A stretch of DNA of 64,000 nucleotides, taken from contig NC_051141.1 of NCBI RefSeq assembly GCF_014839805.1, positions 14,144,777 through 14,208,776 on the forward strand, in the 5' to 3' direction. Position numbers and translations under genes: made by a program. Shown here one piece after another: positions 1 through 61,123 of the stretch. The DNA comes from Manduca sexta (lineage: Eukaryota; Arthropoda; Insecta; Lepidoptera; Sphingidae). Position 1 is the first letter of the stretch, and each line of letters opens with the position of its first letter. Below the pieces are notes generated by a model that saw nothing but the letters and a program-made list of their open reading frames with translations, made no database searches and was not told the origin of the DNA.

Positions 1-88
1 AGGAGTGGTTAAAGGATAGCGATATTATTATAATTGATAATATAAGTTTACATGAAGGTTAAATTTGAACCAATACACAATCCAGGCT
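1..88. other. Haplotype 1-specific sequence at the window start
   Basis: AT-rich, with no similarity to 13357-14360, the region that should correspond to it. It holds no kon exon in either frame. It may be an extra insertion, a rearranged repeat junction or a mis-join. Confidence 0.5.
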
Positions 89-300
89 TTTATTCCCGAA
101 GGGTAGAAGTGCAACTATAACTAGAGCTTCCCCTTTTCGCCATGTGTATACCGTCTTACGTGATAAGGCGAATCAATGGCCACACATAAATTCCAGAATC
201 CGAGCTGATATGTAGTGAAAAAATAAACAATATCACTACTTTAACCGACCCGCGATTCAAGTCCGAGCCTTAAAACCAGAACTCGGGCTTTGTACACAAT
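89..300 (-). repeat. Dispersed lepidopteran repeat tail (haplotype 1)
   Basis: It contains 'ttattcccgaagggtag', 'cgccatgtgtata' and 'aactcgggctttgta', which I recognise from a very common lepidopteran interspersed repeat read on the minus strand. Its class is not decided here. Identical to 14361-14573. Confidence 0.6.
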
Positions 301-526
301 ACAACTACGCAACACCAAGGCAAGCTAACTTTAGTCGGTATAGACACGAGGAACAATAGTAACAATAAAATGCGCAATCTAGTTTCAATTCAATTATAAA
401 CTTTAAACACCCGTTGAGTTTTACATGACCAATGCGATTACTCCGTCAATAACAAAACGCCAGAAATTTCTCTCCCATCTTGGAGCATAGCTTGAATATT
501 TGTCTACTTAAAAAAAAATACTTTAC

Positions 527-3500
527 CGTTTAATGGGTGGCGTGGCTTGTGTCGGTGACGGCATAAGATGATCCGGCGGCCGAGGCAAAGGTATGGGTGC
601 GACGGCGCCCTGGTTCTGGCCGTGTATTTTGGCCATGGCGTTCTGGTCGCGACCCATCATTCTCCGTAACTTCAGAAGCCCAAATATCACTAGTATAGCG
701 AGCACGGTGCCCGATAATGCCATCAGAATCATCAAGTAGTACGATGCTGTTTCACCGTTCGACACCTGAAAGACAAATTCAATGTGACTTTATTGAAAAA
801 GAAACATATATTTTATAGTTTGACAATAAACTCATGTATATAAATAATTGAAAAATTAAATAGTAAAAACTTGGTTTCGTTCTTAGTAAATTAATATTTA
901 CGGTGTAATAATCAAAGTATGAATTATAATTGCAATTTAAAAACAATTTGTGAACCTAAAGAGTTGCACAAATTAAATATGAACTTCTAAGTATTTAAGC
1001 GATTGTGAAGAAAAATGTACTAGGATCTAGATTATATAACTATGAATAACACTCACTGGCACGCCCTCGTGACTCTCTGGATCGTTGGGGCCAGGCAAAT
1101 TCTTCTTTTGTCGATTTCCAATCTGTATCTTTACGTCGCCGACCGCAGGTTGGAATATCGTCGCCGCTAGTAAGAACCTAAAGCTATCCTCGAAGCCATT
1201 CAAGTCATTTATATTCTTTTTAGTAACATAATACATTACACCAGCCTTTACATCTTCATGTGTAAAATATGCTACTTCTCTTTCCCGAGCACTGGTTTTC
1301 TCTCCGGAACTTCTGATTATCTTTTTTATTAGGCCGTATTTTGGCTTCCTAAGTAAGGTGTATATCGGGTCGCTTGCCGTCAGCTTCGCGAGTCCGGTAG
1401 CATCGATTGTGTTCAATGTGATTTTTGTCTTATCATTATCGACTCTCAAATCGCTGAGAATCACTAACGGTTGTACGACCACTTCTATCGTGAAGGGTGG
1501 TGTCGCGTTACTGTTATGGACAAATGCGATTAACTCAAAACTATCGTTTGCTGCTGTCATGTCATTCTGCATATAAATTACTACTTTGTTAATTAAATCT
1601 TTGTGAGAAAAAAATGTTACCGGGTTACGGCCGACATAAACCATTCCATGGAGTGGAGAGCGTGTTACGTTGTACCAAACTTTCGACGTTTTCGCGTTGG
1701 TTTCAACGTATATTTGGTCCGTAGTGACAGCGGCTACATTAGAACCTTGTTGCAAATTTATCGGGTGCAGTGACGTTGCGTTCAATATGACAGGAACAAC
1801 ATCGATAGTGAAAACAGTGTAGGTAGGTTTGAACTGTCCGTCCCACACTCTAAAGTAAAAAGTAGCAGTCTGCAATATCCCTGAATGTTCGTATATGACC
1901 CTACCGTTGTTAACATCATCTTGCGTAAACTTATTTATCGACTGGGCTTCATCGACAGATTGATTTTTATCGAGCATCACTATTCGGCCTTGTGTTGGAC
2001 CACTGATGATATCGTACAGAATTCCTGCTGGCCCGGTATCGGCATCTTCCGTTAGCAAGTCACTTTTAGTTATAGTATAGTTTTCACCTTGCACTACTTG
2101 TATTTGTGGGGTGTCCGTTAATAAACGGAACGGCTGATCGTTGACCGCTATAACATGTATTGTTATAGTGACATTACAAAAGCAGAACGTAATCGGGAAG
2201 CAAGTATAGGGACATGTCAATTTTGTCCTGGACCGTATCCGAATCATCATGCACGTAATTTACAACTCCATTTTCCAATTGTGACTGGGTTAGCGAAGAT
2301 AGCAAGGGTTTCAATTCTCCGTGTGCAGGTTGCGACCACTGCGCCTCGATCTGCGGTTGACGTAAGCCCGCCTGCGTCTCCAAATACGCTATCACATTAG
2401 TCACATTCACTTTCACCGGAACTTTGTCACCTTCCTGAACTTTAATTGGCGGTATGTGCACGTATCTCGCCAACCCACCCGACGACACAGATATGTCGAT
2501 ATTAAAACTCTGGTCAGTCAATGGTTTCGCCAGAGCAGCTTCGATGGTGAATATAAAGGAGTCGTTCGTGTATAAATCAGAGAAAGGATGAGTATGTTCG
2601 TAATAAACTATGGAATTATTCACGTCTTCCTGAGTAAATTGTTTTATCGATCTATGGTGGTTCTCTCCGTTCAACATTATCAATCGGCCCAGTGTCGGCG
2701 CTCTGTCAACCTTGTAAACTATCGGTCTGGTTGAATCCGAACATTTCGACATAAGAATGTTATTCGTCAATGGTTCTCTCATAAGTGGAAATACTCGAAG
2801 GTTGTTTTGCGTATTAATTTTAAAGATACAGATTTCGTCGAAATGAGAAAAGTTATTTTAGATAATTCGTGAAGACCGTCGCTAACATTGAATATCATTT
2901 TTCCCTTTGTACCATCTGCAACAATATTTTTACAGGATGAAATAGTCTTTCTGCTACGTTATTCTTATATACTTTTCAAGAGATATATGAAATCAGGCTT
3001 ACTTCGATGTACAAAAATGACTCGGCCGTTATCAATGTCAGCTTGACTGAAGGTAAGCACGGGCGTTTCGATATCACCCGTCATAGCAATATAACCAGAC
3101 ACTATGTCGACAACCTGAATCGTAACATTTTCGAGCGGAGTATCGATATCGTTCACATCTGAAAACAAAAGTAGAAAAATTCATTATAAATTATATTTCG
3201 GCTTATTTTATTCCAGAACCTTTTATTGTTATTACGTTATATTACGTTATATATCCATCAACATGGACGACAAATGGCATGTAAAGATTGCCGGAACTCG
3301 CTAGATGCACTCTTTTAATAGTTCGGTCTAGAAATCTTTAGGCAAGGCCTATGTTCAGCAGTGAACTTCATGTGACTGATGATGGTGACTATATTCTATA
3401 ACCTATATCGACGGTTGTAAGGCTACTAATTGATTTTTAAGCAGTATTTTATTTCGGTATTAATACATACATATTTATACAATATACCTTTTTAGCGACA

Positions 3501-6500
3501 TTTGAAAATAGATTAATTTTATCTAATAAAAGATCACTTATCAATTAACTTAGTCAAATTTTAAAACTGAATAGTCACTTACAAAGTTCGTTTCTCGTGA
3601 AAGTAAAGGTGCCTCCTTCCCATACACATAGACCCGTGTTAGCCGCCACAATGGGAGTCTCGTCGTTAACCGGGACTATAGTGATTCGAACAGTGAAGGG
3701 CTCACTCTCTTTATTATTCTCAGTGAGTGCGACCAACCTAAACGAGTCTGCGGCCTCTTCCGACCCGTCGTTTACATACTAAAATCATTTGCAATTTTAT
3801 AATAAATAACAGTAATATTATAAGTGCTAAAGTCATAACATGCGGACGAGAACTGGTTGTGTCAGCTTACGATATATCACCAAATTATAGGATGTAGTTG
3901 AATTTGCAATACCGAAATCGCAATCACGAAATTATTTTATTGTAACTACATCTAGAGGCATAAAATCAAACGCGATGTTAATTACCTGTATATTTCCTGA
4001 ATTGAGCTTCAAAACGGGCAACAAATTTAACTCTTGCTCGCCCATCACAATCTTCCCGTACTTCGGTTTCTCGACCACTTTATACGACACCACTTTACCT
4101 CTGTAATATTCTGTGATCGTCTTGAACAAGTCAGGTCTGACACTAATAGCGTCACCCTCAACGACGGTTAAATTTGAAGCAAAGATGTAAAAATGTTCCG
4201 GTATTATTATAACAGTAAGTTCGAGATCACGCAGCCACACTATGCCGTTCGTGACGTCCATTTTTATTCGATCTCTGGTTCGATTTACTCCAGACTGGAC
4301 GTACATTAGTCGGTTGACGTTTATAACAGATTGGTCGAAGACTTGCGTGTGTACGGGCTCTTCGTTATAATTTTCCAACTCGACTGTGCCCGGAGTCGAG
4401 ATAATTTCGAGCCAACCATGGTAGGGGCCATCAGTCACCTTGTAAACTATGTTGGAAGGTTCAATTTGGGGATGCATAACCTGAGATATATAATATTAAT
4501 CAATTATAGAAATATATTAATCACGTTTAATAAATAATAATCATGTAATGCCATTAAAATAAAGGTTATTTAAGCTTACGATAAACAACTGAGGCAAAAA
4601 AATACATACTTCCAAAATATCCTTTGTGATGTTAACACTTGTAGATTCCTCAACGACAAGCGGTCTGTTTGCAGTTACTTTCAACGGCTCCCAGTAGCTT
4701 GATGGGAATATCTTGATATTGTACAAGCCCTCACCCCACGTGTCTAGACACATTACTTTAAACCTATAACAAATGTACTCAATTAACGGAGTTGTAAAGA
4801 ATTGTTAAAGTAAATTAAGTTCTATAAATAATGTCTTAAGGACTGATTTTCATAGATACGAAAAAGAACCTTTACCTGAATTGATCAGAAGGAGTCTTAG
4901 GCTCTCTGTGCCTGTAAGCAACTCTGCCTGCCGCTATGTCCAGCTGAGTGAATGTGTATGCTCCCTGACCCTCCCCGACTTCTATAGAACCGTGTTTAGC
5001 CTCTAAAGTGACCTCGTATCGAATATCCTCTTCAAGGCAGTTCATGTTCGTGTCCACCTTGAATATTAAACCGCTTCAATGCATTTAAAATGTTGACGTT
5101 CGGTTTATTAAATTTAGTTAGTGTCATTTTCGTACACTAAATTACATTATAAAAAATGAGTGTACACGCAGCTTTAGTTTCGGGCTGTAAAAATAAAGTA
5201 ATTTTTTAAATTGTATGTTCAAATTAATATATATCTCACCTGCATATCCTTCGAAGTTATGACCACAGCTTTGCCGTTCTCTACAATAGATCCATTCGAC
5301 GGGTACATCCTTATGAACGGCGGCGATGCCTGTATCTCCAAATTACCATTAACATCAAATACTCCATCCGATATCCAGAAAGCCATCCTTCCATATTCTT
5401 TACCCTGATGCTTGAATAACACCAAGTTCTTATTGATGTCATCCTGCGTGAAAGTTGCTATTTGTTCTGAAGGATTGTCGGCCCGAAAAATGCCGCCATT
5501 CGGAGGGTCTTTTGGCGACCTTTGAACAGTATAAACGATATCTGAAGGTTTGGTGTCCAAATCTGCGTCGTCATAACTGAGATCTCTCGCAGTTATCAGT
5601 CTAGCTCCACCGTGCACTATATGAAACACGTTATTGTTGACCCTGACCGGACTGTTGTCGTTCTTTAATATAACATCGATGTGGAAAACGCCTACGTATT
5701 GAAAATCTTCAGGTTCAGGACTCAAAGCCATAAAATGAAACGAATCATGACGACTTTCAGAATCATCGTGAGAATAATACACTCTGTCAGAATTCAATTC
5801 TTCGAGCGTAAAATACGTGGTGTTGTCTCTGAGAACCTTCAACATTTCATTGATAACTTCGATCTTGCCGTGTTTCGGCAGGCGAGTTATATTAAAAATT
5901 AAATTGGTCACAGCATCGGTCCGGAAATTTAAATGCGTGGTGGGTATAACCATTCTGGAACCTTCGGTGACTTGAAGCCTTTCTAAGGTGGTGTGCACTC
6001 GGCCGGTGGAGTGGTCGGGTAGCAGCAAGCCGGGGAGGTGTCGTATTGTCATCACGCCAGTTATATTCTCGCACTCGGTCGCGCCCACCACAAAGGAGAA
6101 CTCATCCTGTATGTGCGAATACGCGCGTCTATGCAGCCTGTACCACAGTTGGTCAGAGTCGATATTCTGTTGAGTAAACGTGCTATGAGCTTGCAAGTGA
6201 TGTTTTCCCGACGATAGATGAAGTATGCCATACTTAGGCGTTCTTAGTATTGTGTACAAAATTCTTTCGCTAGGCAGCGTCAACGGCTTCGTTTTGAAGT
6301 GCAAATGTTGTGAAGATATGAAGGCTTCTCTGGTGTTATTTAGCACTAACTCTTCATTCATCGATTGATACAATTCCAGTCTGATGAAAGTTAGTCGAAA
6401 ATCGTATAACGTGTTCGTTCGTATCGAGCCTACTGAGGCTTTAAACTGTAGAACAAATAATTCAATATTTTATATTAATTGTAAGAAAACGTAATGTTAA

Positions 6501-9500
6501 GAGCGTTTACGCGTCCGCGCGCCGTATGTCTCAAAAACAGCACTTCTCGAAGGAGATAATATCCATCAAAACATTATTTTAAAAACATAAGAATTAGTAA
6601 TCATTATAGAAAATTTTGTAGTCTAAATAGTTAGTAGAGATTTTTTTTAGATTTATTGAGTATTTGTAAATTCTTTAATGAATACTGAACAGAGGTTTTC
6701 TTATTTGCGCTTCGGACGTCTATTTCGAAGCTCAAAATATCTTAAATCACTAAGGAACATAACAATATTTTATTTTTATCTAACTAAAAAGATCCTGAAG
6801 AAAAAAGTTAGTAGAGAAAAAATATCTTTTATGTTTAATTCATGAGAAATAAAAATTCAAAGAATTCGAAAATATCACAAATGTTGGTCATTTAAATGAT
6901 TTTTTATAACTATATCTTACTTAATTGAATATAATATTGGATTACTATAATAGAAGAACATCTCCTTAAAAACATACAATTTAAAAATTCAACAAAATTA
7001 GTTCTGTTTTTTTTCTATAAATATTTTAAATATCACTATAAAACGCAACGCGCAAATCTTTTCAAATTAGTCCGCCTTGAGGCTCTCTAGAGGGAGGACG
7101 TATCGCTCTTCGCTTTGACCTGTCTCCAGTTGGCCTTTGCTGTGCGTAGAAAAAATAGTCACGTGTATACAGTGATTGCCACATCTTAGTACTTTAGTAA
7201 GTAAAATGATTTTTTCTTTAATGAGTGACAATAATTTTAGTAGTTTCTATTAATTATTATTATATTATTATGTTTCAGACACAATGGGAAGTAAAACTAT
7301 TTCTAGGCAAGATAAGGAAACGCTACAACGCTGAAACTTCGGTTAAAGCAAGAGCTAAAAGGTTGGTGTACTAATGTTATAACATGCGTCTGTAGTTGGT
7401 GTTGGTTTTACTCATTAAACACTTGAGCAACAGTTACTCAAAGGAAAAAAATGGAACCCTAAGCTAAAAACTCACAAAGCGGTATTTACCCGCGCCCGCC
7501 GTGATTGCGGGCCCGCAATTCCTAAAGCATGCAAATATATGTCAAAAATCGATTAGCCCATTAAAATGTCACATGAGCTTTGCATTTTTTAGAGGACGCA
7601 ATTTTATTTTTGGACCATGTGTGGGGGGTCAATAGAAGCTTAACCTCAAGTTTGTGGGGTCGCCACCCTTGTCCCCTGGCCGCCATCATGGATAAAAGGG
7701 TGAAAACACTTTTTTCGCGATATCTCGGAAACTGTCCGTCTTGTAAACGCCCGCCTTGCGATAATCGCTCGCCAAGTTTGCAGGACATAATCGGAACCGC
7801 GGCGGTTGCAAATCGCACAGATCTCCGGTCGTCATGAGTTTGGAAATAAAACAGCCGTTTCTCAACCACGGCGGGCGCGAGTAAAAACCGCTTCGTGAGT
7901 TCTTAGCCTTATAGGATCACTTTGCTGTGCCGTTGTCAAAACGTTTACAACTCGCCAAATTACTCAGTGCGCGACTCCCACTCGCACTTGGCTGATTTTT
8001 TTGCATAATGCATAGGTACGCTTACTTTTAACTAACAAGGTATTAGTGATCACTGGTCAGCACTATTAAAAAAAATCAAGTGACGAGAGACGAATACCTA
8101 TATCTTTCTCCTGTTTGAACCTTAGAAATAAGCGATTTGGTAATTTATGTAGCTAGTGAATAAAACAACTAGTAGTAGTTAGTATACCTATCTTCTTAAC
8201 TATTTGGGCTAGTTTAGGTTTACACGCTCATTTATTTTACATATTACTTTATCCTGACGTTTAACCCTGTGCAGGTTTCGGCGTCATTATACTTGTATAA
8301 ATTAAACGCGTCTAGATCCATATGCAGTTTTACTTAAGTATGTAGTGTTTGCGTAAACTTCGATAACAATAATAGTATGTTCTAAATATATTTTTTTAAT
8401 TTTTAGGTAATCGAACCTGAAACTACACTCAAAATAAATGAGGTTATTAAAAGCCGCAAAATTATAGATTTTCAATATTTCTTGGATCAAATTAAAATAC
8501 TCAATAACCACAACAGAGCAACAGGTTGTAGTATCGAACATTTACAACTATTGATAATGAATTAATGAAGTGTAGTATGTGCAATATGGAATTTAAGCTA
8601 TTTACCTCTAAGAGATATACTGATAGTATGGACGAATATCGTGGAGCTGTAAATGGATCTTTGATGACTGGATTTGGTAGATCAAATTTAAACGAACAGT
8701 TAGCTTCCATAGATTTATCAATATTAACGCAAAATGTTTACATGAAATGTTACGACGAGTTAACTAAATAATTGAAATCAGCTGCAGAGGACAGGATGCA
8801 AGAGGCCGCTAGGAAAGAAACTGATAAAGCTGTTGCCTGTGGCGATGTAAAAGACGGTATTCCCATACTTACAGTCATAGCTGACTGCTGTTGGTCGAAA
8901 AAAAAGTACAGAACCAACTATTTTGCTTCGTCGAGTGTCGCAAATATTATGCAAAACTATGGATACAAAACTAGTAAATTGTTATACATGGATGTACAAT
9001 CGATCGATTGATGATCGACGTCACTGAGAAGCACTACCTATTAAAAAAAAAACTATCCAAAAAAATATAACCAACTTCCGAAAAAAGAAGTCTTTTTATT
9101 TCTCACTTTTTAGTTATACACCTAAAAATGACATCTCATTACATACACCTTCTGACTCAAAATATAAATTCCAATATGTAATTTCTAATGACTTAATTAC
9201 AACTTTCAATATGCTAAATATTAAAAACTGCAGTTCTATGGAGTAATTATGTGGTCCATTATAAATATCGTAGCACAGTAATTTTCCTCTTCCTTTCCTA
9301 AGCACATGGTAATTTTCCTGATTTATTGTCTGATTACGGAGTTCTGGTGCCTATCTTTCGGCTTCATGATGAGCTCCACTTTACTAAAGTGAAAATAACA
9401 ATTTGTAAAATTGCCGTTAAAATTTGTTATAAATGTTTATTTTCTTTTATAATTACAAAATGATACATATAAACTATTTCATGAAGAATTCTTATATAAT

Positions 9501-11080
9501 TAACAATAGAATTCTTCATTCATCATAAATTCATAAATCTTAAGTTACATTCCAATTAGATTATAATTAAAGCGAAAAGATCAAAATTGGTTGGTCTGAC
9601 TATAAAGATAGCCGACGCGCCAACTCTACGCACACAGCTACGCACGGTTCTGTGTGAGTGAATTTTGCGAAGAATTACCTATAGTTGACTTCACGCGCTG
9701 CACGTAAACGCTCTTAATCAAAAAATTTTTTTCCTAAGATATCTCGAGATACGAAGCATCTCATAGTGATATATTACCTTAAACTCGTCATGGGTGGGAT
9801 TCCCAACTAGATGCATGTACCGCACCCGTCCGAATGATACCATTTCGCTAGTGAAAGAGTCGACTGTCTGCCACGTGCTGTCCAGTACCCTCAGCCGCTC
9901 CACCACACCGAACTGAGGCGGTTTTACAATATCATACCTGTTAAACAATAGATGCTTCTGTGACGATGAGGCCAAACATATTTCTAGAAGTGAAACCTAA
10001 GAACCTGTCAGTTGACAAGCAGACTTTAATTTAGTAACGGCCAACTAGCGGGTAGCAGATGGCGCCAGGTATCAGTGGCTAAAAGTTGGATTGTTTCAAA
10101 AGGTAAACCGAGGCATATTTAACAGAAAATAAGAACTTAGACAGACGTAAATAAATCTAAAAGGGAAGCCAGTAGGAATCTGGGTATATAAACGAGTATA
10201 TTCGCCACTGCAGGTGTAAGGGATGGATATGTTTTAGTTTAAGAGAGGCTTGATTCAACATTTTGTGAATTTATTGGCATGAAATGTAAATTAGCCTTAT
10301 CAAAATGTGAGTTAAATGTTAGTCTGAACTCGCACTTAACCATAAAATCCTTAAGAGCTGATTCCAATTTGAAGCCGGTTGTGAATAATTTGGGTATTTG
10401 GCTATTCATGAACACGATATTAAAGTTATTTATGAACGCATTTTATGGATCTACTCGTTACATAAATGTCCGCGTGTTAATGTTACTCACTTGACTTGTA
10501 CGTTAGTTTCGTCCGCGTTAGTGGTGAAAGTGAGATTGTCGGCGGCGATGATCGCGTAGGAGTTATGTACCAGCTGCAAACCAGTGTTGTTCACAAGTCT
10601 CACTTGAAGTGGAACTATCGATATGCGCAGTATGCCCGGACCACTTGTCTCTATTCCGTCTGATACCTGAAATTATGCGAAGTATTTTCATTAAAGCTGT
10701 TTGTATACCGATTTTAATAAACAACTTTTACCACTATGTTCGGAGCGAAAACGAACACGGGTACCAATCAGAATGATTTCTGACATGGTTATAAACGACA
10801 TATTTCGATTTATTCTTTCATTGGTACGATAGGGATTGTTTATAGAAGCCGTTCAAAGTACAAAAGTAAATATAATATTCATATAAAGACTGAAAAGCAG
10901 GTCAATTATATCAGATTGTAAGATCAATACGCATGGAGCCTCGCCTGCAATGTGACCCGTAGCGAGGTCTTGTTAAGCTGACCGCCGGCGCCGGCGCCGT
11001 GCACGTAAGATATCAGCCCCGCGTCCACGTCGTGTTGCGTGAACGAGTCCACCGGACCGCCCGACATCTCTATGTGGCCA
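527..11080 (-). CDS. kon: kon exons 22 to 12, haplotype 1 copy (3' half of the gene)
   Basis: Second allele of the proteoglycan gene. Exons, 3' to 5' along the gene: 527-765, 1057-2915, 3003-3158, 3583-3778, 3986-4480, 4610-4763, 4876-5057, 5240-6445, 9778-9937, 10491-10666, 10945-11080. They encode the CSPG repeats from about residue 624 to the transmembrane helix. Exon 12 is intact here and broken in the other copy. Exon 21 has compensating single-base differences near 2805 and 2180. Exons 11 to 1 lie on contig 3 (43188-56622). The last two exons would lie before the window start or be missing; bases 1-88 do not match them. Confidence 0.93.
8409..9011 (+). pseudogene. Decayed Mutator-like transposase segment (haplotype 1)
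   Basis: Three broken frames follow in order: VIEPETTLKINEVI to IIDFQYFLDQIKIL; CSMCNMEFKLFTSK to GSLMTGFGRSNLNEQLASI; then KDGIPILTVIADCCWSKKKY and TNYFASSSVANIM. The sequence of a hydrophobic 'FLDQIK' helix, a C-x2-C pair, 'A-V-x-G-S-L-x-T-G-x-G' and 'D-x-x-W-S-K-x-x-Y' fits the Mutator-like transposase domain found in many insect genes (Pfam PF20700, from memory). Stops at 8559 and 8769 and frame changes make it non-functional. Confidence 0.65.
9481..9519. repeat. Perfect 12-bp inverted repeat (stem-loop), also at 23756-23794
   Basis: ATGAAGAATTCT and its exact complement AGAATTCTTCAT are separated by 15 bases, inside the TTAA element. It could be a subterminal structure of the transposon. 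Confidence 0.6.
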
Positions 11081-11231
11081 CTGTTGATGAAATATAACAA
11101 TGGGTAATTAAAACGAAATGTCATTACGTTTTTATTTTATGGTCATTGAATTTTCTTTGTCTATATTGTGCATCGCTTTATCTAAGACAATATTATCTAA
11201 TCATAAAATTATGTCTAATGACTACTATGAC

Positions 11232-12856
11232 TAACGCCCGAATACTGAAACGCTACTCAACCAACCAACTTGTCTGAGGCCTACTTAAATTTAACAGGCT
11301 ACTTAATTTAAATGGCATTCTCAAACGTACATTAAAAGATTTTAAGGAAAACTCAGTTGAGGAGCAGTTAATTTGCTATAGATTATAAAAAGTTTGTTTT
11401 CGTTTACATAATTTTAATAAAATGATATTTGTGTGTCGTTTCACGCAGTATAATTTATGAAACATAAATATGATGAAATAACATAATACGCAGTTTAATT
11501 AAAAAATATTTTTAATTATTAAATTCTCAACATGGATGTGATCAATACACTCCAACTTATTTATACTTGCCACTTGGCAGTATGGTCAGTATTGACATTA
11601 GTCACTTTAGAAAAAAAAAATCTACCTAATTGGCGGCAACAATATTCATAATACTTTTTTTGTATCTATCACAGAAGTTTGTTTTATAATTATATAAATT
11701 TTCTATAATTATCAATGGAGTCTTCTAATAATAAAACCACAAAAAAAAGGGGTTGCAATTATACCCACATAGAAAAGCAAGAATTACTAGATATAGTGAA
11801 AAAGTAAGTATTGGATTTATTTTGGAGGCACATCGACTTGAGAAAAAAGGCACAGTATTAATTATTACACACATAATCGTTTTTATGATTTTAGACACAT
11901 ACATATAATTGAGAATAAGGCGACGAACGGCGCAATATTAAAAGAAAAACAAGCGGCTTGGGTCGCTATTGCCCAAGATTATAATTCTGGCGCCACAAGT
12001 GGACCCAGGACATGGGTGCAATTAAGACATCTGTATGATAATCTTAAACAACGAACAAAAAAAAATGTGGCGAAAGAAAATGTAAGTTTTGTACTGAACT
12101 ATAAAATATAATGACTGACGTACAGCCAAAATAATAGGTACATACTAATAATTATTCAGCATTATATGTCCCTATTCATCCCATTGTGCAATAAACAACC
12201 TATAAAATTAACCATAAAAACCCACTCACAGTCACCGTTCAGGTGTGAGTCACATGCCACTTCATTTGAGTTGCTTATTGACAATGCACATCAACCCTTT
12301 TATGATTTTATCTTAATAATCTTCCTGTCAAATATTACAGAGACAACAGTTCTATGAAAAAGAAAATCGTATAAAAAATGCGAAAGAAAAAGCATCTTAT
12401 GATAAAGTAAGTAATTATATAGATACTTATTAATGTTATTTATTTTACCTTTGTACTCCAGAAAAATTTACATTTATAATATTTTAATGATATATTCATT
12501 CTCTCTTATAATTTCATTGTTAGGAAATACAAGAGATATAATTGATAAGTTTATATAATACTATATTCATTTATATATTTCTGGAATAGGATTCTAATTT
12601 TGAGACTCTAGCACCCAAGTGTTTTTAGTTGTTTTTATACTGTTACCCAATGCTATTTGTTTATGTTTAGATCATATGTTTACTTCTTTTTTGGATTATA
12701 GAAACAAATGATTGAAACGGGTGGCGGATCATTTAAATCTGTTTTAACAGATACTGATGCCAAAATGTTAGCTTTAGTAGCTCCCCAAATAAAACCTTTA
12801 TGCAATCCATATGATGATGCCGCCCAATACTTTGGTTTGAACTACTTTTTTTATAT
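11232..12856 (+). mobile_element. Harbinger-like DNA transposon, left part (haplotype 1 only)
   Basis: The left terminal repeat starts at 11235 (CGCCCGAATACTGAAACGCT). The right terminal repeat on contig 3 ends at 42778; its reverse complement starts CGCCCGAATACTCAAACGCT. Over 26 bases the two differ at two positions. TAA lies outside both ends (11232-11234 and 42779-42781), and a single TAA is present in the uninterrupted allele at 25508-25510. A 3-bp T-W-A duplication plus a Myb/SANT gene is the PIF/Harbinger pattern. The transposase gene itself is not visible and would be in the gap. Confidence 0.8.
11715..12856 (+). CDS. Myb/SANT-like DNA-binding protein of the Harbinger-like element, partial
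   Basis: Four exons splice in phase: 11715-11803, 11895-12081, 12341-12406, 12702 into the gap. The product begins MESSNNKTTKKRGCNYTHIE. A Myb/SANT-like domain follows with conserved aromatics (ILKEKQAAWVAIAQDYN, GPRTWVQLRHLYDNLKQRTK), then a charged linker and KQMIETGGGSFKSVLTD. The 'W...L-x-x-L-x-x-N-L-K' pattern and 'T-G-G-G' after the linker match the zeste/MSANTD3-type proteins that PIF/Harbinger elements use as their second protein, which aids nuclear import and terminal-repeat binding. All splice sites are canonical and there is no stop, so it could be expressed. The C-terminus is lost in the 500-N gap. Confidence 0.75.
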
Positions 12857-13356
12857 NNNNNNNNNNNNNNNNNNNNNNNNNNNNNNNNNNNNNNNNNNNN
12901 NNNNNNNNNNNNNNNNNNNNNNNNNNNNNNNNNNNNNNNNNNNNNNNNNNNNNNNNNNNNNNNNNNNNNNNNNNNNNNNNNNNNNNNNNNNNNNNNNNNN
13001 NNNNNNNNNNNNNNNNNNNNNNNNNNNNNNNNNNNNNNNNNNNNNNNNNNNNNNNNNNNNNNNNNNNNNNNNNNNNNNNNNNNNNNNNNNNNNNNNNNNN
13101 NNNNNNNNNNNNNNNNNNNNNNNNNNNNNNNNNNNNNNNNNNNNNNNNNNNNNNNNNNNNNNNNNNNNNNNNNNNNNNNNNNNNNNNNNNNNNNNNNNNN
13201 NNNNNNNNNNNNNNNNNNNNNNNNNNNNNNNNNNNNNNNNNNNNNNNNNNNNNNNNNNNNNNNNNNNNNNNNNNNNNNNNNNNNNNNNNNNNNNNNNNNN
13301 NNNNNNNNNNNNNNNNNNNNNNNNNNNNNNNNNNNNNNNNNNNNNNNNNNNNNNNN
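12857..13356. other. Assembly gap (500 N) inside the Harbinger-like element
   Basis: The run is exactly 500 N, a placeholder length. The left flank lies inside exon 4 of the element's Myb/SANT gene; the right flank is the unrelated start of contig 2 next to kon exon 24. Confidence 0.99.
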
Positions 13357-13419
13357 CCAATTAGAAAATAGTTGAAAATTGTAAATGAGCACAATTTAAA
13401 TCTTAGGACTTAAACTCAC

Positions 13420-13567
13420 CCGGCTTGGGCGGTCTGGGCAAAGTATATGTGTCCTTGGGTCAGACCCAGTATTGGTTGCGCCGGAGCATCGGATTGGCGG
13501 GCGCAACGCCAGGCGTGCGGACCGGGTACGCTGACTCGCTCGCTTCGTAACTGCTCCAGTCTTCAGC
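13420..13567 (-). CDS. kon: kon exon 24: C-terminus with PDZ ligand QYWV; stop at 13460-13462
   Basis: It reads AEDWSSYEASESAYPVRTPG and ends PMLRRNQYWV-stop. RRNQYWV closely matches the NG2/CSPG4 C-terminus, which binds PDZ proteins. The 40 bases after the stop end at a strong donor (GCCGG|GTGAGT at 13419), so a 3'-UTR intron is likely. A second frame is open across all 148 bases. Confidence 0.9.
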
Positions 13568-16500
13568 CTGCGAACCGTTCTTTAAATGTGTTTAATTATT
13601 TTGTAGCATAGCAGACGGTGTATTAGAATTAGGAAATGTGTCTTTTGAGATAGTGTGGACATAAATTAACAATCGTAAAGTTCATGCGACTGAACTGTTA
13701 ATTCGATATAAACTTTGACAGTTAGTTTCGGTATAGTATCGGTTGGATTTCACAGTAGCTGAATTATGTAGAAACTACCGTACCGGTGGCAAAGTTTAGT
13801 GTGAAACATGGAACCACTACAATGTCAAAGGAATTTATTACATAAAGTTGAAGAGTTTGTTTATTTCTTTTTGAACGCTCTAATCTCAGGCACTGATTAA
13901 AAAAATCTTTAAGTTTTAGATAGCTTATTTATCTAGGATGGCTATATGCATCACGCTATGTCCAGCTGTGCTGAGCATCAGCGAAACATGTATCAAAAAC
14001 GAAAAAACATATTATTCCTTTTAAGAGCTTTCGTTGCATGCACTGCGTTAAAGTTACGCGACAATCATGTATGACGGAACTGTCCTCTTAAAAGGGCTAA
14101 AAATATTTTAATACATCCCCCGCCTCCATTGCCTGCCTGTCTGACCGAGACACACTTAACAACATCGGATTTTATTCTGGGAAGTACAGCCTAATTTCTA
14201 TCCTGGGAGAATATATAGTGCGTGTGCGTGCGTGTGTGTGTATGTGATTACTATATTTATAAAACAATTATTACTCACATCTGTATGGTCGTCAGCGCCA
14301 TATGGATACCGAGCGTTGAGGTCGGGCAGTCCGGCATCTGCCAACGGAGTCACTTTGCACTTTTATTCCCGAAGGGTAGAAGTGCAACTATAACTAGAGC
14401 TTCCCCTTTTCGCCATGTGTATACCGTCTTACGTGATAAGGCGAATCAATGGCCACACATAAATTCCAGAATCCGAGCTGATATGTAGTGAAAAAATAAA
14501 CAATATCACTACTTTAACCGACCCGCGATTCAAGTCCGAGCCTTAAAACCAGAACTCGGGCTTTGTACACAATACAACTACGCAACACCAAGGCAAGCTA
14601 ACTTTAGTCGGTATAGACACGAGGAACAATAGTAACAATAAAATGCGCAATCTAGTTTCAATTCAATTATAAACTTTAAACACCCGTTGAGTTTTACATG
14701 ACCAATGCGATTACTCCGTCAATAACAAAACGCCAGAAATTTCTCTCCCATCTTGGAGCATAGCTTGAATATTTGTCTACTTAAAAAAAAATACTTTACC
14801 GTTTAATGGGTGGCGTGGCTTGTGTCGGTGACGGCATAAGATGATCCGGCGGCCGAGGCAAAGGTATGGGTGCGACGGCGCCCTGGTTCTGGCCGTGTAT
14901 TTTGGCCATGGCGTTCTGGTCGCGACCCATCATTCTCCGTAACTTCAGAAGCCCAAATATCACTAGTATAGCGAGCACGGTGCCCGATAATGCCATCAGA
15001 ATCATCAAGTAGTACGATGCTGTTTCACCGTTCGACACCTGAAAGACAAATTCAATGTGACTTTATTGAAAAAGAAACATATATTTTATAGTTTGACAAT
15101 AAACTCATGTATATAAATAATTGAAAAATTAAATAGTAAAACTTGGTTTCGTTCTTAGTAAATTAATATTTACGGTGTAATAATCAAAGTATGAATTATA
15201 ATTGCAATTTAAAAACAATTTGTGAACCTAAAGAGTTGCACAAATTAAATATGAACTTCTAAGTATTTAAGCGATTGTGAAGAAAAATGTACTAGGATCT
15301 AGATTATATAACTATGAATAACACTCACTGGCACGCCCTCGTGACTCTCTGGATCGTTGGGGCCAGGCAAATTCTTCTTTTGTCGATTTCCAATCTGTAT
15401 CTTTACGTCGCCGACCGCAGGTTGGAATATCGTCGCCGCTAGTAAGAACCTAAAGCTATCCTCGAAGCCATTCAAGTCATTTATATTCTTTTTAGTAACA
15501 TAATACATTACACCAGCCTTTACATCTTCATGTGTAAAATATGCTACTTCTCTTTCCCGAGCACTGGTTTTCTCTCGGAACTTCTGATTATCTTTTTTAT
15601 TAGGCCGTATTTTGGCTTCCTAAGTAAGGTGTATATCGGGTCGCTTGCCGTCAGCTTCGCGAGTCCGGTAGCATCGATTGTGTTCAATGTGATTTTTGTC
15701 TTATCATTATCGACTCTCAAATCGCTGAGAATCACTAACGGTTGTACCTTGACCACTTCTATCGTGAAGGGTGGTGTCGCGTTACTGTTATGGACAAATG
15801 CGATTAACTCAAAACTATCGTTTGCTGCTGTCATGTCATTCTGCATATAAATTACTACTTTGTTAATTAAATCTTTGTGAGAAAAAAATGTTACCGGGTT
15901 ACGGCCGACATAAACCATTCCATGGAGTGGAGAGCGTGTTACGTTGTACCAAACTTTCGACGTTTTCGCGTTGGTTTCAACGTATATTTGGTCCGTAGTG
16001 ACAGCGGCTACATTAGAACCTTGTTGCAAATTTATCGGGTGCAGTGACGTTGCGTTCAATATGACAGGAACAACATCGATAGTGAAAACAGTGTAGGTAG
16101 GTTTGAACTGTCCGTCCCACACTCTAAAGTAAAAAGTAGCAGTCTGCAATATCCCTGAATGTTCGTATATGACCCTACCGTTGTTAACATCATCTTGCGT
16201 AAACTTATTTATCGACTGGGCTTCATCGACAGATTGATTTTTATCGAGCATCACTATTCGGCCTTGTGTTGGACCACTGATGATATCGTACAGAATTCCT
16301 GCTGGCCCGGTATCGGCATCTTCCGTTAGCAAGTCACTTTTAGTTATAGTATAGTTTTCACCTTGCACTACTTGTATTTGTGGGGTGTCCGTTAATAAAC
16401 GGAACGGCTGATCGTTGACCGCTATAACATGTATTGTTATAGTGACATTACAAAGCAGAACGTAATCGGGAAGCAAGTATAGGGACATGTCAATTTTGTC

Positions 16501-22500: not shown

Positions 22501-25500
22501 CACGCTCATTTATTTTACATATTACTTTATCCTGACGTTTAACCCTGTGCAGGTTTCGGCGTCATTATACTTGTATAAATTAAACGCGTCTAGATCCATA
22601 TGCAGTTTTACTTAAGTATGTAGTGTTTGCGTAAACTTCGATAACAATAATAGTATGTTCTAAATATATTTTTTTAATTTTTAGGTAATCGAACCTGAAA
22701 CTACACTCAAAATAAATGAGGTTATTAAAAGCCGCAAAATTATAGATTTTCAATATTTCTTGGATCAAATTAAAATACTCAATAACCACAACAGAGCAAC
22801 AGGTTGTAGTATCGAACATTTACAACTATTGATAATGAATTAATGAAGTGTAGTATGTGCAATATGGAATTTAAGCTATTTACCTCTAAGAGATATACTG
22901 ATAGTATGGACGAATATCGTGGAGCTGTAAATGGATCTTTGATGACTGGATTTGGTAGATCAAATTTAAACGAACAGTTAGCTTCCATAGATTTATCAAT
23001 ATTAACGCAAAATGTTTACATGAAATGTTACGACGAGTTAACTAAATAATTGAAATCAGCTGCAGAGGACAGGATGCAAGAGGCCGCTAGGAAAGAAACT
23101 GATAAAGCTGTTGCCTGTGGCGATGTAAAGACGGTATTCCCATACTTACAGTCATAGCTGACTGCTGTTGGTCGAAAAAAAAGTACAGAACCAACTATTT
23201 TGCTTCGTCGAGTGTCGCAAATATTATGCAAAACTATGGATACAAAACTAGTAAATTGTTATACATGGATGTACAATCGATCGATTGATGATCGACGTCA
23301 CTGAGAAGCACTACCTATTAAAAAAAAAACTATCCAAAAAAATATAACCAACTTCCGAAAAAAGAAGTCTTTTATTTCTCACTTTTTAGTTATACACCTA
23401 AAAATGACATCTCATTACATACACCTTCTGACTCAAAATATAAATTCCAATATGTAATTTCTAATGACTTAATTACAACTTTCAATATGCTAAATATTAA
23501 AAACTGCAGTTCTATGGAGTAATTATGTGGTCCATTATAAATATCGTAGCACAGTAATTTTCCTCTTCCTTTCCTAAGCACATGGTAATTTTCCTGATTT
23601 ATTGTCTGATTACGGAGTTCTGGTGCCTATCTTTCGGCTTCATGATGAGCTCCACTTTACTAAAGTGAAAATAACAATTTGTAAAATTGCCGTTAAAATT
23701 TGTTATAAATGTTTATTTTCTTTTATAATTACAAAATGATACATATAAACTATTTCATGAAGAATTCTTATATAATTAACAATAGAATTCTTCATTCATC
23801 ATAAATTCATAAATCTTAAGTTACATTCCAATTAGATTATAATTAAAGCGAAAAGATCAAAATTGGTTGGTCTGACTATAAAGATAGCCGACGCGCCAAC
23901 TCTACGCACACAGCTACGCACGGTTCTGTGTGAGTGAATTTTGCGAAGAATTACCTATAGTTGACTTCACGCGCTGCACGTAAACGCTCTTAATCAAAAA
24001 AAAAATTTTTTTCCTAAGATATCTCGAGATACGAAGCATCTCATAGTGATATATTACCTTAAACTCGTCATGGGTGGGATTCCCAACTAGATGCATGTAC
24101 CGCACCCGTCCGAATGATACCATTTCGCTAGTGAAAGAGTCGACTGTCTGCCACGTGCTGTCCAGTACCCTCAGCCGCTCCACCACACCGAACTGAGGCG
24201 GTTTTACAATATCATACCTGTTAAACAATAGATGCTTCTGTGACGATGAGGCCAAACATATTTCTAGAAGTGAAACCTAAGAACCTGTCAGTTGACAAGC
24301 AGACTTTAATTTAGTAACGGCCAACTAGCGGGTAGCAGATGGTGCCAGGTATCAGTGGCTAAAAGTTGGATTGTTTCAAAAGGTAAACCGAGGCAAATTT
24401 AACAGAAAATAAGAACTTAGACAGACGTAAATAAATCTAAAAGGGAAGCCAGTAGGAATCGGGGTATATAAACGGGTATATTCGCCACTGCAGGTGTAAG
24501 GGATGGATATGTTTTAGTTTAAGAGAGGCTTGATTCAACATTTTCTGAATTTATTGGCATGAAGTGTAAATTAGCCTTATCAAAATGTGAGTTAAATGTT
24601 AGTCTGAACTCGCACTTAACCATAAAATCCTTAAGAGCTGATTCCAATTTGAAGCCGGTTGTGAATAATTTGGGTATTTGGCTATTCATGAACACGATAT
24701 TAAAGTTATTTATGAACGCATTTTATGGATCTACTCGTTACACAAATGTCCGCGTGTTAATGTTACTCACTTGACTTGTACGTTAGTTTCGTCCGCGTTA
24801 GTGGTGAAAGTGAGATTGTCGGCGGCGATGATCGCGTAGGAGTTATGTACCAGCTGCAAACCAGTGTTGTTCACAAGTCTCACTTGAAGTGGAACTATCG
24901 ATATGCGCAGTATGCCCGGACCACTTGTCTCTATTCCGTCTGATACCTGAAATTATGCGAAGTATTTTCATTAAAGCTGTTTTTATACCGATTTTAATAA
25001 ACAACTTTTACCACTATGTTCGGAGCGAAAACGAACACGGGTACCAATCAGAATGATTTTTGACATGGTTATAAACGACATATTTCGATTTATTCTTTCA
25101 TTGGTACGATAGGGATTGTTTATAGAAGCCGTTCAAAGTACAAAAGTAAATATAATATTCATATAAAGACTGAAAAGCAGGTCAATTATATCAGATTGTA
25201 AGATCAATACGCATGGAGCCTCGCCTGCAATGTGACCCGTAGCGAGGTCTTGTTAAGCCGCCGGCGCCCGGCACCGTGCACGTAGATATCAGCCCCGCGT
25301 CCACGTCGTGTTGCGTGAACGAGTCCACCGGACCGCCCGACATCTCTATGTGGCCACTGTTGATGAAATATAACAATGGGTAATTAAAACGAAATGTCAT
25401 TACGTTTTTATTTTATGGTCATTGAATTTTCTTTGTCTATATTGTGCATCGCTTTATCTAAGACAATATTATCTAATCATAAAATTATGTCTAATGACTA

Positions 25501-40567: not shown

Positions 40568-40569
40568 AG

Positions 40570-40710: not shown

Positions 40711-40727
40711 TTTTAACAAAAAATTAA

Positions 40728-41300: not shown

Positions 41301-41339
41301 TTGTTACAATTATTTTTATTTTTTGCTTTTTTGTGTTAG

Positions 41340-41933
41340 TAAAAAATAGAGCGTCTCAATGGCATAGTTGTGTTTCGCTCACGATCCGAGTATCGCGCTG
41401 AGGAGTTACACCTTTGAGTACACTGAAAAGGGGAAAAGGTGTGATGCTATATATATGTCTGTAAGAAGTAGATTCAAGCAAACCTAACGCAAAACACAAC
41501 TGATATATTTGGCTCACAGTACAATTATCTCGCTGTGGTGTTACACCTCTACCTACCCCTGAACAGGGAAAAGGTGTGATGCTATATATACGTATGTATG
41601 TAAGAAGTAGAAAACTAAACCCAACGCAAAAACACAACTAATATGTTTCGCTCGCAGTACGACTATCGCGCTGAAATGTTACACCTCTGCCTACCCTTGA
41701 AAGGGGAAAAGGTGTGATGCTATATATATGTATGTAAGAAGTAGATTCAAGCAAACCTAACGCAAAAACACAACTGATATATTTCGATCATACTACAACT
41801 ATCGCGCTGTGGTGTTACATCTCTACCCCTAAAAAGGAGAAAAGGTGTGATGCTATATACATATATGTATGTATGTAAGAAGTAGTCAATTAAACCCAAC
41901 CCAAAAACACAACTGATATGTTTCACACACGTA
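41340..41933. repeat. Tandem array, ~135-bp unit, at the end of contig 2
   Basis: The anchor GGTGTGATGCTATATA recurs at about 41438, 41573, 41711 and 41843. Each unit has 'cgctg-ggtgttacacctct', 'gaaaagg' and a TATG microsatellite-like stretch. The array is cut by the 500-N gap. Confidence 0.85.
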
Positions 41934-42433
41934 NNNNNNNNNNNNNNNNNNNNNNNNNNNNNNNNNNNNNNNNNNNNNNNNNNNNNNNNNNNNNNNNNNN
42001 NNNNNNNNNNNNNNNNNNNNNNNNNNNNNNNNNNNNNNNNNNNNNNNNNNNNNNNNNNNNNNNNNNNNNNNNNNNNNNNNNNNNNNNNNNNNNNNNNNNN
42101 NNNNNNNNNNNNNNNNNNNNNNNNNNNNNNNNNNNNNNNNNNNNNNNNNNNNNNNNNNNNNNNNNNNNNNNNNNNNNNNNNNNNNNNNNNNNNNNNNNNN
42201 NNNNNNNNNNNNNNNNNNNNNNNNNNNNNNNNNNNNNNNNNNNNNNNNNNNNNNNNNNNNNNNNNNNNNNNNNNNNNNNNNNNNNNNNNNNNNNNNNNNN
42301 NNNNNNNNNNNNNNNNNNNNNNNNNNNNNNNNNNNNNNNNNNNNNNNNNNNNNNNNNNNNNNNNNNNNNNNNNNNNNNNNNNNNNNNNNNNNNNNNNNNN
42401 NNNNNNNNNNNNNNNNNNNNNNNNNNNNNNNNN
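41934..42433. other. Assembly gap (500 N) between contigs 2 and 3
   Basis: A placeholder-length gap. The left flank is in the ~135-bp tandem array upstream of kon; the right flank is in the 3' part of the Harbinger-like element. The flanks do not belong to one haplotype. Confidence 0.99.
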
Positions 42434-42781
42434 CAGACAATGACGAAAGTGATGAAAAGACATTATATTATATCGAAAGGGAATATAATAACTACTAAAA
42501 CAACTATAAATATTTTGTCGTAAAGATTTGAGACTAGTCACAAGCACTCTCAAATTAATCTCAATTAACAGCCATATAAGGCGGCCTTAAATAGCTGTCA
42601 AACTTTAAGCAGGGTTTGTGAATACCGTTTGCATCAATAAGCGGACCTTAAACCTTCGTCGCCTTAAATTTAAGGATAGGAAATAAGTGACGTTTCAGTA
42701 TACCAATTTCAAAGATAACGAATGCTTAAATCCGTAAGGCCATCTTAAATATTTAAGTAGCGTTTGAGTATTCGGGCGTAA
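42434..42781 (+). mobile_element. Harbinger-like DNA transposon, right part (haplotype 1 only)
   Basis: It ends with a terminal repeat complementary to the one at 11235, followed by the TAA target duplicate and then kon intron 11 sequence shared with contig 2 from 25511. At its left edge an open stretch (42436-42498) reads DNDESDEKTLYYIEREYNNY-stop, a plausible acidic C-terminus of an element-encoded protein. Confidence 0.8.
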
Positions 42782-49100: not shown

Positions 49101-52100
49101 TTAACAAACAAAATGACCGTATTTATGCTCAAAGCTCTAAGGAAGCTTCCCAATTAGTCGACAGAGTGCAACGTGGACATTATCCGACTTCAGTGATGGT
49201 TTGGTGGGGTGTTAGCTATGAAGGAGTGACTGAGCCATATTTTTGTGAAAAGGTATCAAAACATCGGCACAAGTGTATCAAGATACCATTCTTGAGAAGG
49301 TAGTTAAGCCCCTTAACATCACCATGTTCAATAACCAAGTATGGTCCTTCCAGCAAGACTCGGCGCCGGGTCATAAAGCTCGGTCCACGCAGTCTTGGTT
49401 GGAATCGAACGTTTCGGACTTCATCAGAGCTGAAGACTGGCCGTCGTCTAGTCCCGATCTTAATCCGCTGGATTATGATTTGTGGTCAGTTTTAGAGAGT
49501 ACAGCTTGCTCTAAACGCCATGATAATTTGGAGTCCCTAAAACAATCTATACGATTGGCAGTGAAGAATTTTCCCATGGAAAGAGTGCGTGCTTCTATTG
49601 ATAACTGGCCTCATCGTTTAAAGGACTGTATTGCAGCCAATGGAGACCACTTCGAATAAGCTTTTTATATTTTTAATTGTTTTATATTTATGTATTAAAC
49701 TGACACACTGTAAAAGTAATAAATGTTATTTGCAGTTAACAATTTTCTTTTTTCTTTATTACAATATTTATGGCAAGACTAGGTATAAAAAAAAAAATTA
49801 TTCAGAGTTTTACTTTCAAATCTATACCTACACTATTATATGTATAATGCTAAAGAGTTTCTTTGAACGATCTAATCTCCGGAGGGACCAGTTCGAAGTA
49901 AAAAAAATCGTTTATTGCTGGATAGCCCACTTATCAAGAAAGGCTATATAAACAAAAGGTATAACTACATGGTACAAGTCATATCACTTGTACTACAAAT
50001 GCTTGTTACAGTATCTTTTGTGGTTTTGTTTACCAAACACGCCTTTGTGACTTGAGGCTTGTAAAATAAGACGTGTAATCTATAATACTCTATATTATTA
50101 TATAAAGCTGATGAGTTTGATTGAATGCGCTAATCTCAGGAACTACTGGTACGAACTGAAAAAATATTTTAGTATTGAATAGCCCTTTAGTTGTGGAAGG
50201 CTATATAGGCTATATATCATCACGATATGACCAATAGGAGTGGAGTAGTAATAAAAAATGTTACAATAACGGGAAAAATATATTACTTTTGAGATCTTCC
50301 ATTGCGTGCGCTGCGTAAACAGTTAAAATTACATAACAAATATTTACAACAGATTTTAATGAAATTTGGCATTGAGATAGATAGAGACCCTAGGGAGAAC
50401 ATTGTGGAGTTCAATCCCTGGAAAGTATATAGCGTGGTTTTATCTTGGAAAACTCTTTCACGCGGGCAAATCCGCAAGTAAAAGTTAAAAATAAAAATAT
50501 TGTCATCCATTGTACCTTCCGCCAGCTCTGGAGTTAATCCTGGGCAGAATCAAGTAAGCACCTTCATCAACAAAACTTATGTCGGTGTTACTATCAGCGT
50601 CGAATTCCGGGGCGCAGTTCCAGGTCACTCCTTCCACGTGCACCGAGCCGGCGCGCGACCGAGCCTTCTCTATTATTTTTACCGAATTATAGTAAACCTA
50701 TCGACAAAAAGTGTTATTATAAAACAACACCTCATAACATTACACATAGTATACGCATTAAAATTACACTACGGCATCAAACACTACGATTATTGATAAT
50801 TTATGTATAACATTATGCTGCGACAACAAATTTGAAAATATTATACATTTTTGAACAAAAACGGAGCAGATAATAAAATATTTTAATAAAAATAAAACTG
50901 TTTAAAACTTTTTCGAGGCTATGTTGTACATACTTTATAATTTACTATATTTCCAGATTAAATTTAAACATTAGAACTGGTTTCTTAAACCAAGCTCAAG
51001 AACTGTAAACCAGATTTCAGGCCACACTCTTAATTTGATTGGATGATTGATGATTGGTTACCTAGTTAAATTTGGACAACCAAAATGAGGATGAGCTTTC
51101 GTCTATAAAATATTAGGTATAGTATATATGTACCATAGTATTATATAGTATGGTAACGGGAAAAGAGTAGTATAAATCCATACATAAACGAATATATACT
51201 CACATCTTCCATACACCCGCGGAAGTTTTCCATATGACCCAAAAACAATTCAGAGAAGTCCCCCTGGCCGCCAAGGAACACACCGAAATGTATGTTCAGT
51301 TCAAAGAACCTGCCCGGCAGTCGCTTTTTCACTGTGCTGTCATCCACCTAAAAATAAACATGACATTATATTTAGACATGACTTAAAATTTTACCGTTTA
51401 ATAAATTGTGCATTTGACTGTCTGTTATTAGTTTGTAAGCCAATAAGTTTTATCCTATAAAATAACATAAGTACAATTAAAATCAAGAAATAAATTGTTT
51501 CCAGTAATGCCAGCTGTAAACTAAAACAAATTTTAGTTAATTCTTGGGGTGCAGCCGACATAAAAGCTGTTGTTTTGATTTTATTTCTTTATAAGATCGA
51601 TACTGCCGTTAGGATACAACCCAATATACATTGGAGTTTTGCCTAACCTGAAACGGGGAGGGCAGCGGTCTCTACTTCTGCGAGGTGATTTTCTCCCGCA
51701 AGGAGAATACCAAGAGGGATCAGGAACAGTTTGATCCCTCTTACTGCTATAGAAGACATAGGAGGCGCCGGGCGGACGACTTAACAGCGTCTCCCGCCCT
51801 TTAAATTGGGGGCGTTTGAAGAATTCCACCACGATATTTCCTGGCTGTCGTGAAAGGCGACTAATAGGGATCATCAGAAGGTTATTGGCAAGTAGCTGGT
51901 CTGTTCCCCGTTGGCATGTTTATACACAGCCCTACGAACATTGTAAAATCCCGGAATAGTCATGATTATAACAATATGTATATGTCAAAGCAATATGTTA
52001 ACTATATAGTGGCAGTGTCGTTGGCTAGATCTCAGGTTGTCATTGACGCCGGGGGCCTATTTCATTGCACACATACAAAAACATTTCTTCCTGCATCACA

Positions 52101-59310: not shown

Positions 59311-59326
59311 TTTTAACAAAAAATTA

Positions 59327-59893
59327 AACCGCCTTCAAAACCACTTAAAACACCAAATAATTTCACATAACAGTTATATATTGGATACCAATTTTGGAGT
59401 CGGTGCCTAATTAAAATTGCTAGTTAGCTAACTAAATATAACTAAATATAGCTATATTTGTTGCATAGTCCATCTATGAGCTACATTTCTTTCAAATGAA
59501 TTAAAAGGAGTAGGTTCGCGTTTCTACTAATAAACATACACAGTGAAAGGTGTAATACCAAGCACATGTATGGTGTTTCATCTTTTTCTTTCCTCTTTTT
59601 TCGGGGCAGGGAGTGTAATATACCCACATTTGATCAGCTATATGTAACAGGGGAAGAATTTGGGTAGTTCCTTAATAGCTTCCATTTGCTGTGCTGCGGC
59701 AGTGCGTTCATCTCCGGTGAAGATCTGACTTGCTGACTTTGTACGCTGGCAGCACATTGTTTTCGTATATTTGTTAATGTATTTATCTAGCTTAACTAGC
59801 AATTTTAATTAGGCACCGACTCCAAAATTGGTATCCAATATATAACTGTTATGTGAAATTATTTTTTGGTTTTGAGTGGATTTTGAAGGCAGT
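59327..59893. repeat. Long inverted repeat, MITE-like (haplotype 1)
   Basis: Allelic to 40728-41300, with the same arms and centre. Confidence 0.65.
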
Positions 59894-59939
59894 TAAATTT
59901 TTTGTTACAATTATTTTTATTTTTTGCTTTTTTGTGTTA

Positions 59940-60665
59940 GTAAAAAATAGAGCGTCTCAATGGCATAGTTGTGTTTCGCTCACGATCCGAGTATCGCGCT
60001 GAGGAGTTACACCTTTGAGTACACTGAAAAGGGGAAAAGGTGTGATGCTATATATATGTCTGTAAGAAGTAGATTCAAGCAAACCTAACGCAAAAACACA
60101 ACTGATATATTTGGCTCACAGTACAATTATCTCGCTGTGGTGTTACACCTCTACCTACCCATGACCAGGGGAAAAGGTGTGATGCTATATATACGTATGT
60201 ATGTAAGAAGTAGAGGAAACTAAACCCAACGCAAAAACACAACTAATATGTTTCGCTCGCAGTACGACTATCGCGCTGAAATGTTACACCTCTGCCTACC
60301 CTTGAAAAGGGGAAAAGGTGTGATGCTATATATATGTATGTAAGAAGTAGATTCAAGCAAACCTAACGCAAAAACACAACTGATATATTTCGATCATACT
60401 ACAACTATCGCGCTGTGGTGTTACATCTCTACCCCTAAAAAGGAGAAAAGGTGTGATGCTATATACATATATGTATGTATGTAAGAAGTAGTCAATTAAA
60501 CCCAACCCAAAAACACAACTGATATGTTTCACACACAGTACGACTATTGCGATGAAATGTTACGCCTCTGCCTACCCCTGACACGGGGAAAAGGTGTTAT
60601 GCTATATGTATAAGTATGTGAGAAGTACAGTCAACCAAACTCAACGCAAAAACATAACCAAATAC
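59940..60665. repeat. Tandem array, ~135-bp unit, complete in haplotype 1
   Basis: The same unit is anchored at about 60039, 60176, 60317, 60450 and 60593 (five copies), the last decayed (GGTGTTATGCTATATG). Units differ from each other by about 10-20%, whereas allelic units are nearly identical, so the array predates the haplotypes. Confidence 0.85.
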
Positions 60666-60714
60666 GTCACAAGAAAGCTAAATTCGCGATTTCGTTTTCT
60701 TAGACGACATAATT

Positions 60715-60925
60715 ATTCTAGTTTTTTTAATTTTAAAATCAAACTACCGAAGCGATGTTGAAAAAAATTTTATGGGACCAATCTGGAGAGAAATTCTATC
60801 GAATAAAAAAAGAATTTTCCAAATCGGTTCATAAATGACCGAGTTCTGAGGTAACAAACATACAAAAAAAAAATTCACGTCGAATTGATAACCTCCTCCT
60901 TTTTTGAAGTCGGTTAAAAAAACTT
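60715..60925 (-). repeat. Dispersed repeat fragment
   Basis: On the minus strand it reads 'accgacttcaaaaaaggagg', 'aggttatcaattcgacgtg', then 'acctcagaactcggtcattt', a common lepidopteran repeat phrase. The 64-codon minus-strand ORF across it is incidental. Confidence 0.55.
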
Positions 60926-61123
60926 CACTTATTCCCATTCTTTTTTTTCTCTCTGGGACTTATTCCTATTATAGGTATAATAACGATACCAATTGATTTT
61001 TGAAGATAAAGATTTTTAACAAAATTTCCAATGATTTAATTAAGTTCCCATCATTGACAATAACTGTGTATAAAAATGTATACTTACACCTGCATTCACT
61101 ATTATGTTACTATCGAAATTTGT

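Follow-up and report, generated by a model that had tools for sequence, protein, structure and literature searches.

A kon/CSPG4 locus of Manduca sexta that appears to have been assembled twice, with the redundant contig scaffolded into a break in the other copy's transposon

False duplication is a known and ordinary assembly artefact without biological novelty. In the Vertebrate Genomes Project paper, heterotype duplications are those in which two haplotypes have both been kept, and homotype duplications are those in which the same sequence appears twice, often at contig boundaries and over approximately a read length; a case combining the two is also given there (PMC8081667). Ko et al. 2022 name as marks of false duplication gaps that separate the copies, half read depth, discordant read pairs, and k-mers present in single copy (PMC9516828). 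A heterotype duplication leaves two haplotypes of one locus in the primary scaffold, separated by gaps, and mimics a gene duplication (PMC9516828, PMC8081667). Among the papers listed on haplotypic duplication in Lepidoptera (8 of 824) and on haplotigs at transposon insertions (5 of 5), the opening lines of the abstracts do not describe the locus treated here. We are highly confident, from comparison of the assembled pieces with one another, that a kon/CSPG4 locus was assembled twice and that one contig, which was left unpurged, was scaffolded into the break between two others.

The window, by which we mean the whole 64,000-nucleotide stretch of NC_051141.1 that was analyzed, consists of four pieces split by three runs of N, each exactly 500 N long (12857–13356, 41934–42433, and 61124–61623). 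Hi-C scaffolders, for example 3D-DNA or SALSA, write gaps as runs of 500 N. Contig 1 (1–12856), which continues beyond the start of the window, is read as the left part of haplotype A, and contig 3 (42434–61123) as its right part; contig 2 (13357–41933), which lies between them, is read as a redundant copy of the locus from haplotype B. Self-comparison of the window gives collinear matches of 87–11234 in contig 1 to 14360–25510 in contig 2 (99.67% identity), of 42779–48479 in contig 3 to 25508–31207 (98.73%), and of 49784–60536 in contig 3 to 31204–41930 (99.31%). Apart from 1,003 bases at its start and 3 at its end, contig 2 thus aligns to sequence in the interior of contigs 1 and 3. The unaligned 1,003 bases (13357–14359) are unlike the 86 bases that lie to the left of the match in contig 1. 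Judged from this alignment, contig 2 repeats the locus. The claim of the preliminary description that one locus is present twice therefore stands, with 14360–41930 of contig 2 covered by contigs 1 and 3. As in heterotype cases, the duplicated pair lies on one scaffold and is separated by 500-N gaps (12857–13356 and 41934–42433).

Tandem repeats occur near the right ends of both copies. In contig 2, a unit of ~138 bp is present in 4.0 copies (41373–41924), and the contig ends 9 bases further on; its counterpart in contig 3 has a unit of ~141 bp in 4.9 copies (59974–60658). Contig 4 contains three copies of a 123-base tandem repeat (63094–63456), which is ~70–86% similar to interspersed pieces at 13880–14123, 31494–31755, and 50078–50339.

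By its similarity and domain content, the gene within the duplicated sequence is the orthologue of kon/CSPG4 in Lepidoptera. When a rough, splice-based gene model was used as a protein query, the 120 matches listed of 233 included chondroitin sulfate proteoglycan 4 from numerous moths and butterflies, together with orthologues from other insects; one of these, from Anopheles darlingi, is named kon-tiki. In a comparison of five exon pieces of 402, 165, 513, 96, and 66 residues, the best match was 88.2% identical (Heliothis virescens, Helicoverpa armigera). Pfam identifies Cadherin_3 (CSPG) repeats and laminin G domains, the C-terminus reads QYWV (...NQYWV), and a transmembrane segment is recognized by orthologue alignment and by eye. 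These are the features of kon-tiki, the CSPG4 orthologue that is also called perdido, and orthologues are present in moths, mosquitoes, and flies. Unlike those orthologues, both assembled copies have broken reading frames, and a portion of exon 23 is missing from contig 2. No match was obtained when the largest exon fragment was searched against the PDB.

The gene comprises 24 exons on the minus strand. When the Anticarsia gemmatalis orthologue (P0013) was compared with contig 2 by tblastn, 24 collinear pieces were obtained; some exons are split by frame breaks and some pieces overrun neighboring exons, and after sorting they represent exons 2–13 and 15–24. Exon 14 was placed from the splice-based model, which missed exons and placed a spurious intron across the frame break of exon 21; apart from serving as the protein search query, that model was used for the position of exon 14 only. 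Exon 1 was located separately from the P0013 match, and contig 3 carries the same exon 1 unchanged. In contig 2, exons 22 to 1 occupy 14800–38008 (minus strand), and exon 24, which encodes the C-terminus and is seen in contig 2 only, lies at 13463–13573 (minus strand; tblastn, P0013 residues 2322–2358), with its 5' boundary being approximate. The assignment of exons 22–12 to contig 1 and of exons 11–1 to contig 3 in the preliminary description agrees with our map, in which exons 2–22 were projected from contig 2 and exon 1 was matched.

A key observation concerns a transposon in the intron that separates exons 11 and 12. Contig 1 ends inside this element, of which it holds the left 1,622 bp (11235–12856, plus strand), and contig 3 starts inside it with the right-hand 345 bp (42434–42778, plus strand). 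The terminal inverted repeat matches at 22 of 23 bases and lies at the exact ends of the element (right end, 42756–42778), a match that none of 20,000 shuffles of these halves attained. The element is flanked by a TAA target-site duplication, with the left copy at 11232–11234 and the right copy at 42779–42781. When 40 bases of each flank were joined and one TAA was taken out, the resulting 77 bases matched contig 2 exactly at 25471, which identifies an uninterrupted, empty target site at 25471–25547. The left half also encodes a Myb/SANT-like domain (11842–12108; Myb_DNA-bind_5, PF13873; E = 1.4e-15; 57.4 bits versus a cutoff of 21.7). Elements of the PIF/Harbinger superfamily produce 3-bp target duplications of the TWA type, and a gene for a Myb/SANT-like protein is typical of them. 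The split element has such a gene, a 3-bp duplication (TAA), and terminal inverted repeats (22 of 23 bases); the Myb/SANT-like domain and the 3-base duplication point to PIF/Harbinger. The middle of the element is absent, and the unity of its halves rests on the ends, the target site, and the duplication, not on sequence that runs through. Two independent insertions at one site were considered and rejected, since the two pieces represent opposite ends of an element, their inverted repeats match, and they share one duplication.

Because the transposon halves match and contig 2 contains the exact empty site, contigs 1 and 3 are neighbors on one chromosome, and contig 2 has been wrongly scaffolded between them. 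The earlier statements that a single transposon ends contig 1 and begins contig 3, that contig 2 has the uninterrupted target site, and that the order contig 1, contig 2, contig 3 is impossible for a chromosome are all upheld by the inverted repeat, the TAA duplication, and the 77-base match. In the proposed sequence of events, one assembly path (contigs 1 and 3) would have followed the haplotype with the PIF/Harbinger-like transposon, with the contig breaking inside the repeat, and another (contig 2) would have followed the haplotype without it. Contig 2 would then have escaped purging, and the scaffolder, having presumably seen linkage among the three pieces, would have put it into the break. 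Unlike described heterotype cases, the second copy here sits inside a break in a transposon that it lacks, and the order error follows from the sequence alone.

A second transposon, which the preliminary description did not mention, also distinguishes the copies. The element at 48480–49783 in contig 3 (1,304 bp, plus strand) is absent from contig 2; it has TA at both ends together with matching inverted ends, and a single reading frame within it is similar to the transposases of Sleeping Beauty (E = 5e-10) and Mos1 (E = 3.2e-6). The TA duplication, the inverted repeats, and the superfamily transposase match resemble Mariner/Tc1, and we describe it as mariner-type; against this likeness, its Pfam DDE_3 match is below the cutoff (23.4 versus 28.6 bits) and its transposase frames are broken.

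Sequence differences between the copies divide the duplicated region into two tracts. From 24343 of contig 2 onward, there are 90 substitutions in 17,562 columns, in addition to the two transposon presence/absence differences. The left tract (87–10062 versus 14360–24342 in contig 2) contains 0 substitutions in 9,969 aligned columns, against ~45 expected at 0.45%, and 14 indels of 1–4 bases; the preliminary description did not mention this substitution-free tract. Haplotype-specific differences, as in heterotype duplications, are therefore found from 24343 on and are absent from the left 9,969 columns, and only the right part looks heterozygous. The earlier reading of the copies as two haplotypes fits the right part, whereas the left columns contain no heterozygous site. 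From its identity, collinearity, and small differences, we infer that contig 2 represents the second allele and not a paralogue that was misplaced, and the substitution-free left 10 kb is probably either the same sequence or one identical by descent. The right part thus fits the heterotype class, and the left part would fit either the homotype class or a tract identical by descent. The left tract resembles homotype duplications in having ~10 kb near a contig end with small indels and no substitutions (PMC8081667). Unlike homotype cases, contig 2 runs on for 1,003 bases of different sequence past the shared tract. The whole pattern agrees with published false duplications that combine heterotype and homotype parts (PMC9516828, PMC8081667).

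Contig 2 might instead be a real second kon copy, a recent segmental duplicate from elsewhere that was misplaced into the gap. The order error holds for an allele and a paralogue alike, and identities of 98.7–99.7% also fit a very young duplicate. However, a substitution-free 10-kb tract beside a tract with 0.5% divergence, together with a match over the whole locus, suits alleles better, and the named lepidopteran species show one CSPG4 each, apart from isoforms, fragments, and second assemblies (an unsystematic count over the 120 matches listed of 233). We consider a segmental duplicate very improbable. That the order is real, with one kon copy inserted within another kon copy's transposon, is scarcely credible: the scaffold is written in this way, and nothing else speaks for it, whereas each junction is a gap of 500 N and the locus would need to have landed inside itself.

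For the left 10 kb taken separately, homozygosity by descent competes with one sequence having been assembled twice at a contig boundary. Long identical tracts can be common to two haplotypes, as would be consistent with substitutions in 0 of 9,969 columns. Against this, the identical tract gives way at 14360, without transition, to wholly different sequence, and the homotype duplications described from contig boundaries have approximately the length of a read (PMC8081667). Homozygosity by descent is accordingly a real possibility for this tract, falling somewhat short of an even chance. For the locus as a whole, assembly of two copies of one locus remains the preferred reading.

The small differences between the copies bear on the quality of both sequences. 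The reading frames differ at nine coding sites, six of which are broken in contig 2 (exons 2, 4, 5, 8, 12, and 21; indels, in order of position, at 15576, 25284, 28018, 32023, 32742, and 35922) and three in contigs 1/3 (one site in exon 6 and two in exon 21; indels, in order of position, at 16452, 17078, and 30398, also in contig 2 coordinates). At all nine sites, the opposite copy keeps the frame of the orthologue used. This comparison is blind to breaks common to both copies, and the P0013 matches gave no sign of any. Coding substitutions number seven in 2,139 columns, with six of them falling within a single run of 15 poorly aligned bases in exon 12. Among the small indels, 41 of 56 touch a homopolymer of at least 3 bases (the TAA duplication is counted among the 56); the figure for 3,000 random positions is 33.4%. 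This indel pattern resembles the consensus error that remains in long-read assemblies, and the frame breaks are probably errors of a noisy consensus, not signs of two decayed genes.

The left end of the alignment between contigs 1 and 2 was examined at exon 23. The alignment stops, to within one base, at a breakpoint inside this exon (14359–14360); the remaining part of exon 23 in contig 2 (14279–14359, minus strand) is truncated at its 5' side and lacks ~23 codons and the acceptor. Exon 22 of contig 2 ends in PPIKR at 14800 with two codon bases left over, and exon 23 begins abruptly at CKV at 14359; read by hand, the phases of exons 22 and 23 are incompatible with any AG just before CKV. Among the 120 homologues listed, PPIKR is present in 36 and is followed by YV in 36 of 36. 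The stretch from YV to CKVTPL or CRVTPL, measurable in 34 of these 36, spans 23 residues in 33 homologues and 21 in the remaining one. The missing segment was sought across the whole window, and nothing convincing was found. Within the window, contig 1 ends short of exon 23, and exons 23 and 24 are visible in contig 2 only. The preliminary description of contig 2 as carrying a complete 24-exon gene is therefore correct in that 24 exons are present and needs amending in that exon 23 is cut at 14359 and six exons are frame-broken. Complete divergence at 14360 beside a substitution-free 10 kb is unexplained by a simple allele pair. A faulty end of contig 2 is more likely than a real deletion, as the next 10 kb is free of substitutions. 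That the contig 2 haplotype has truly lost the acceptor and first ~23 codons of exon 23 would, on the sequence at hand, be unlikely.

Our analysis has consequences for how this scaffold is used. A gene count or synteny analysis performed on it would give two kon genes, one of them split. An unpurged copy placed inside the other copy's transposon can be recognized from sequence alone by the empty site. Removal of contig 2 from the primary path, as was earlier advised, would lose the only visible exons 23 and 24. Automatic purging is risky here, as the redundant contig holds the window's only copies of these exons, and contig 2 should not be purged before contig 1 has been followed leftwards. 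Should the exon 23 deletion be real after all, the animal would be heterozygous for a kon allele without a conserved part of the cytoplasmic tail.
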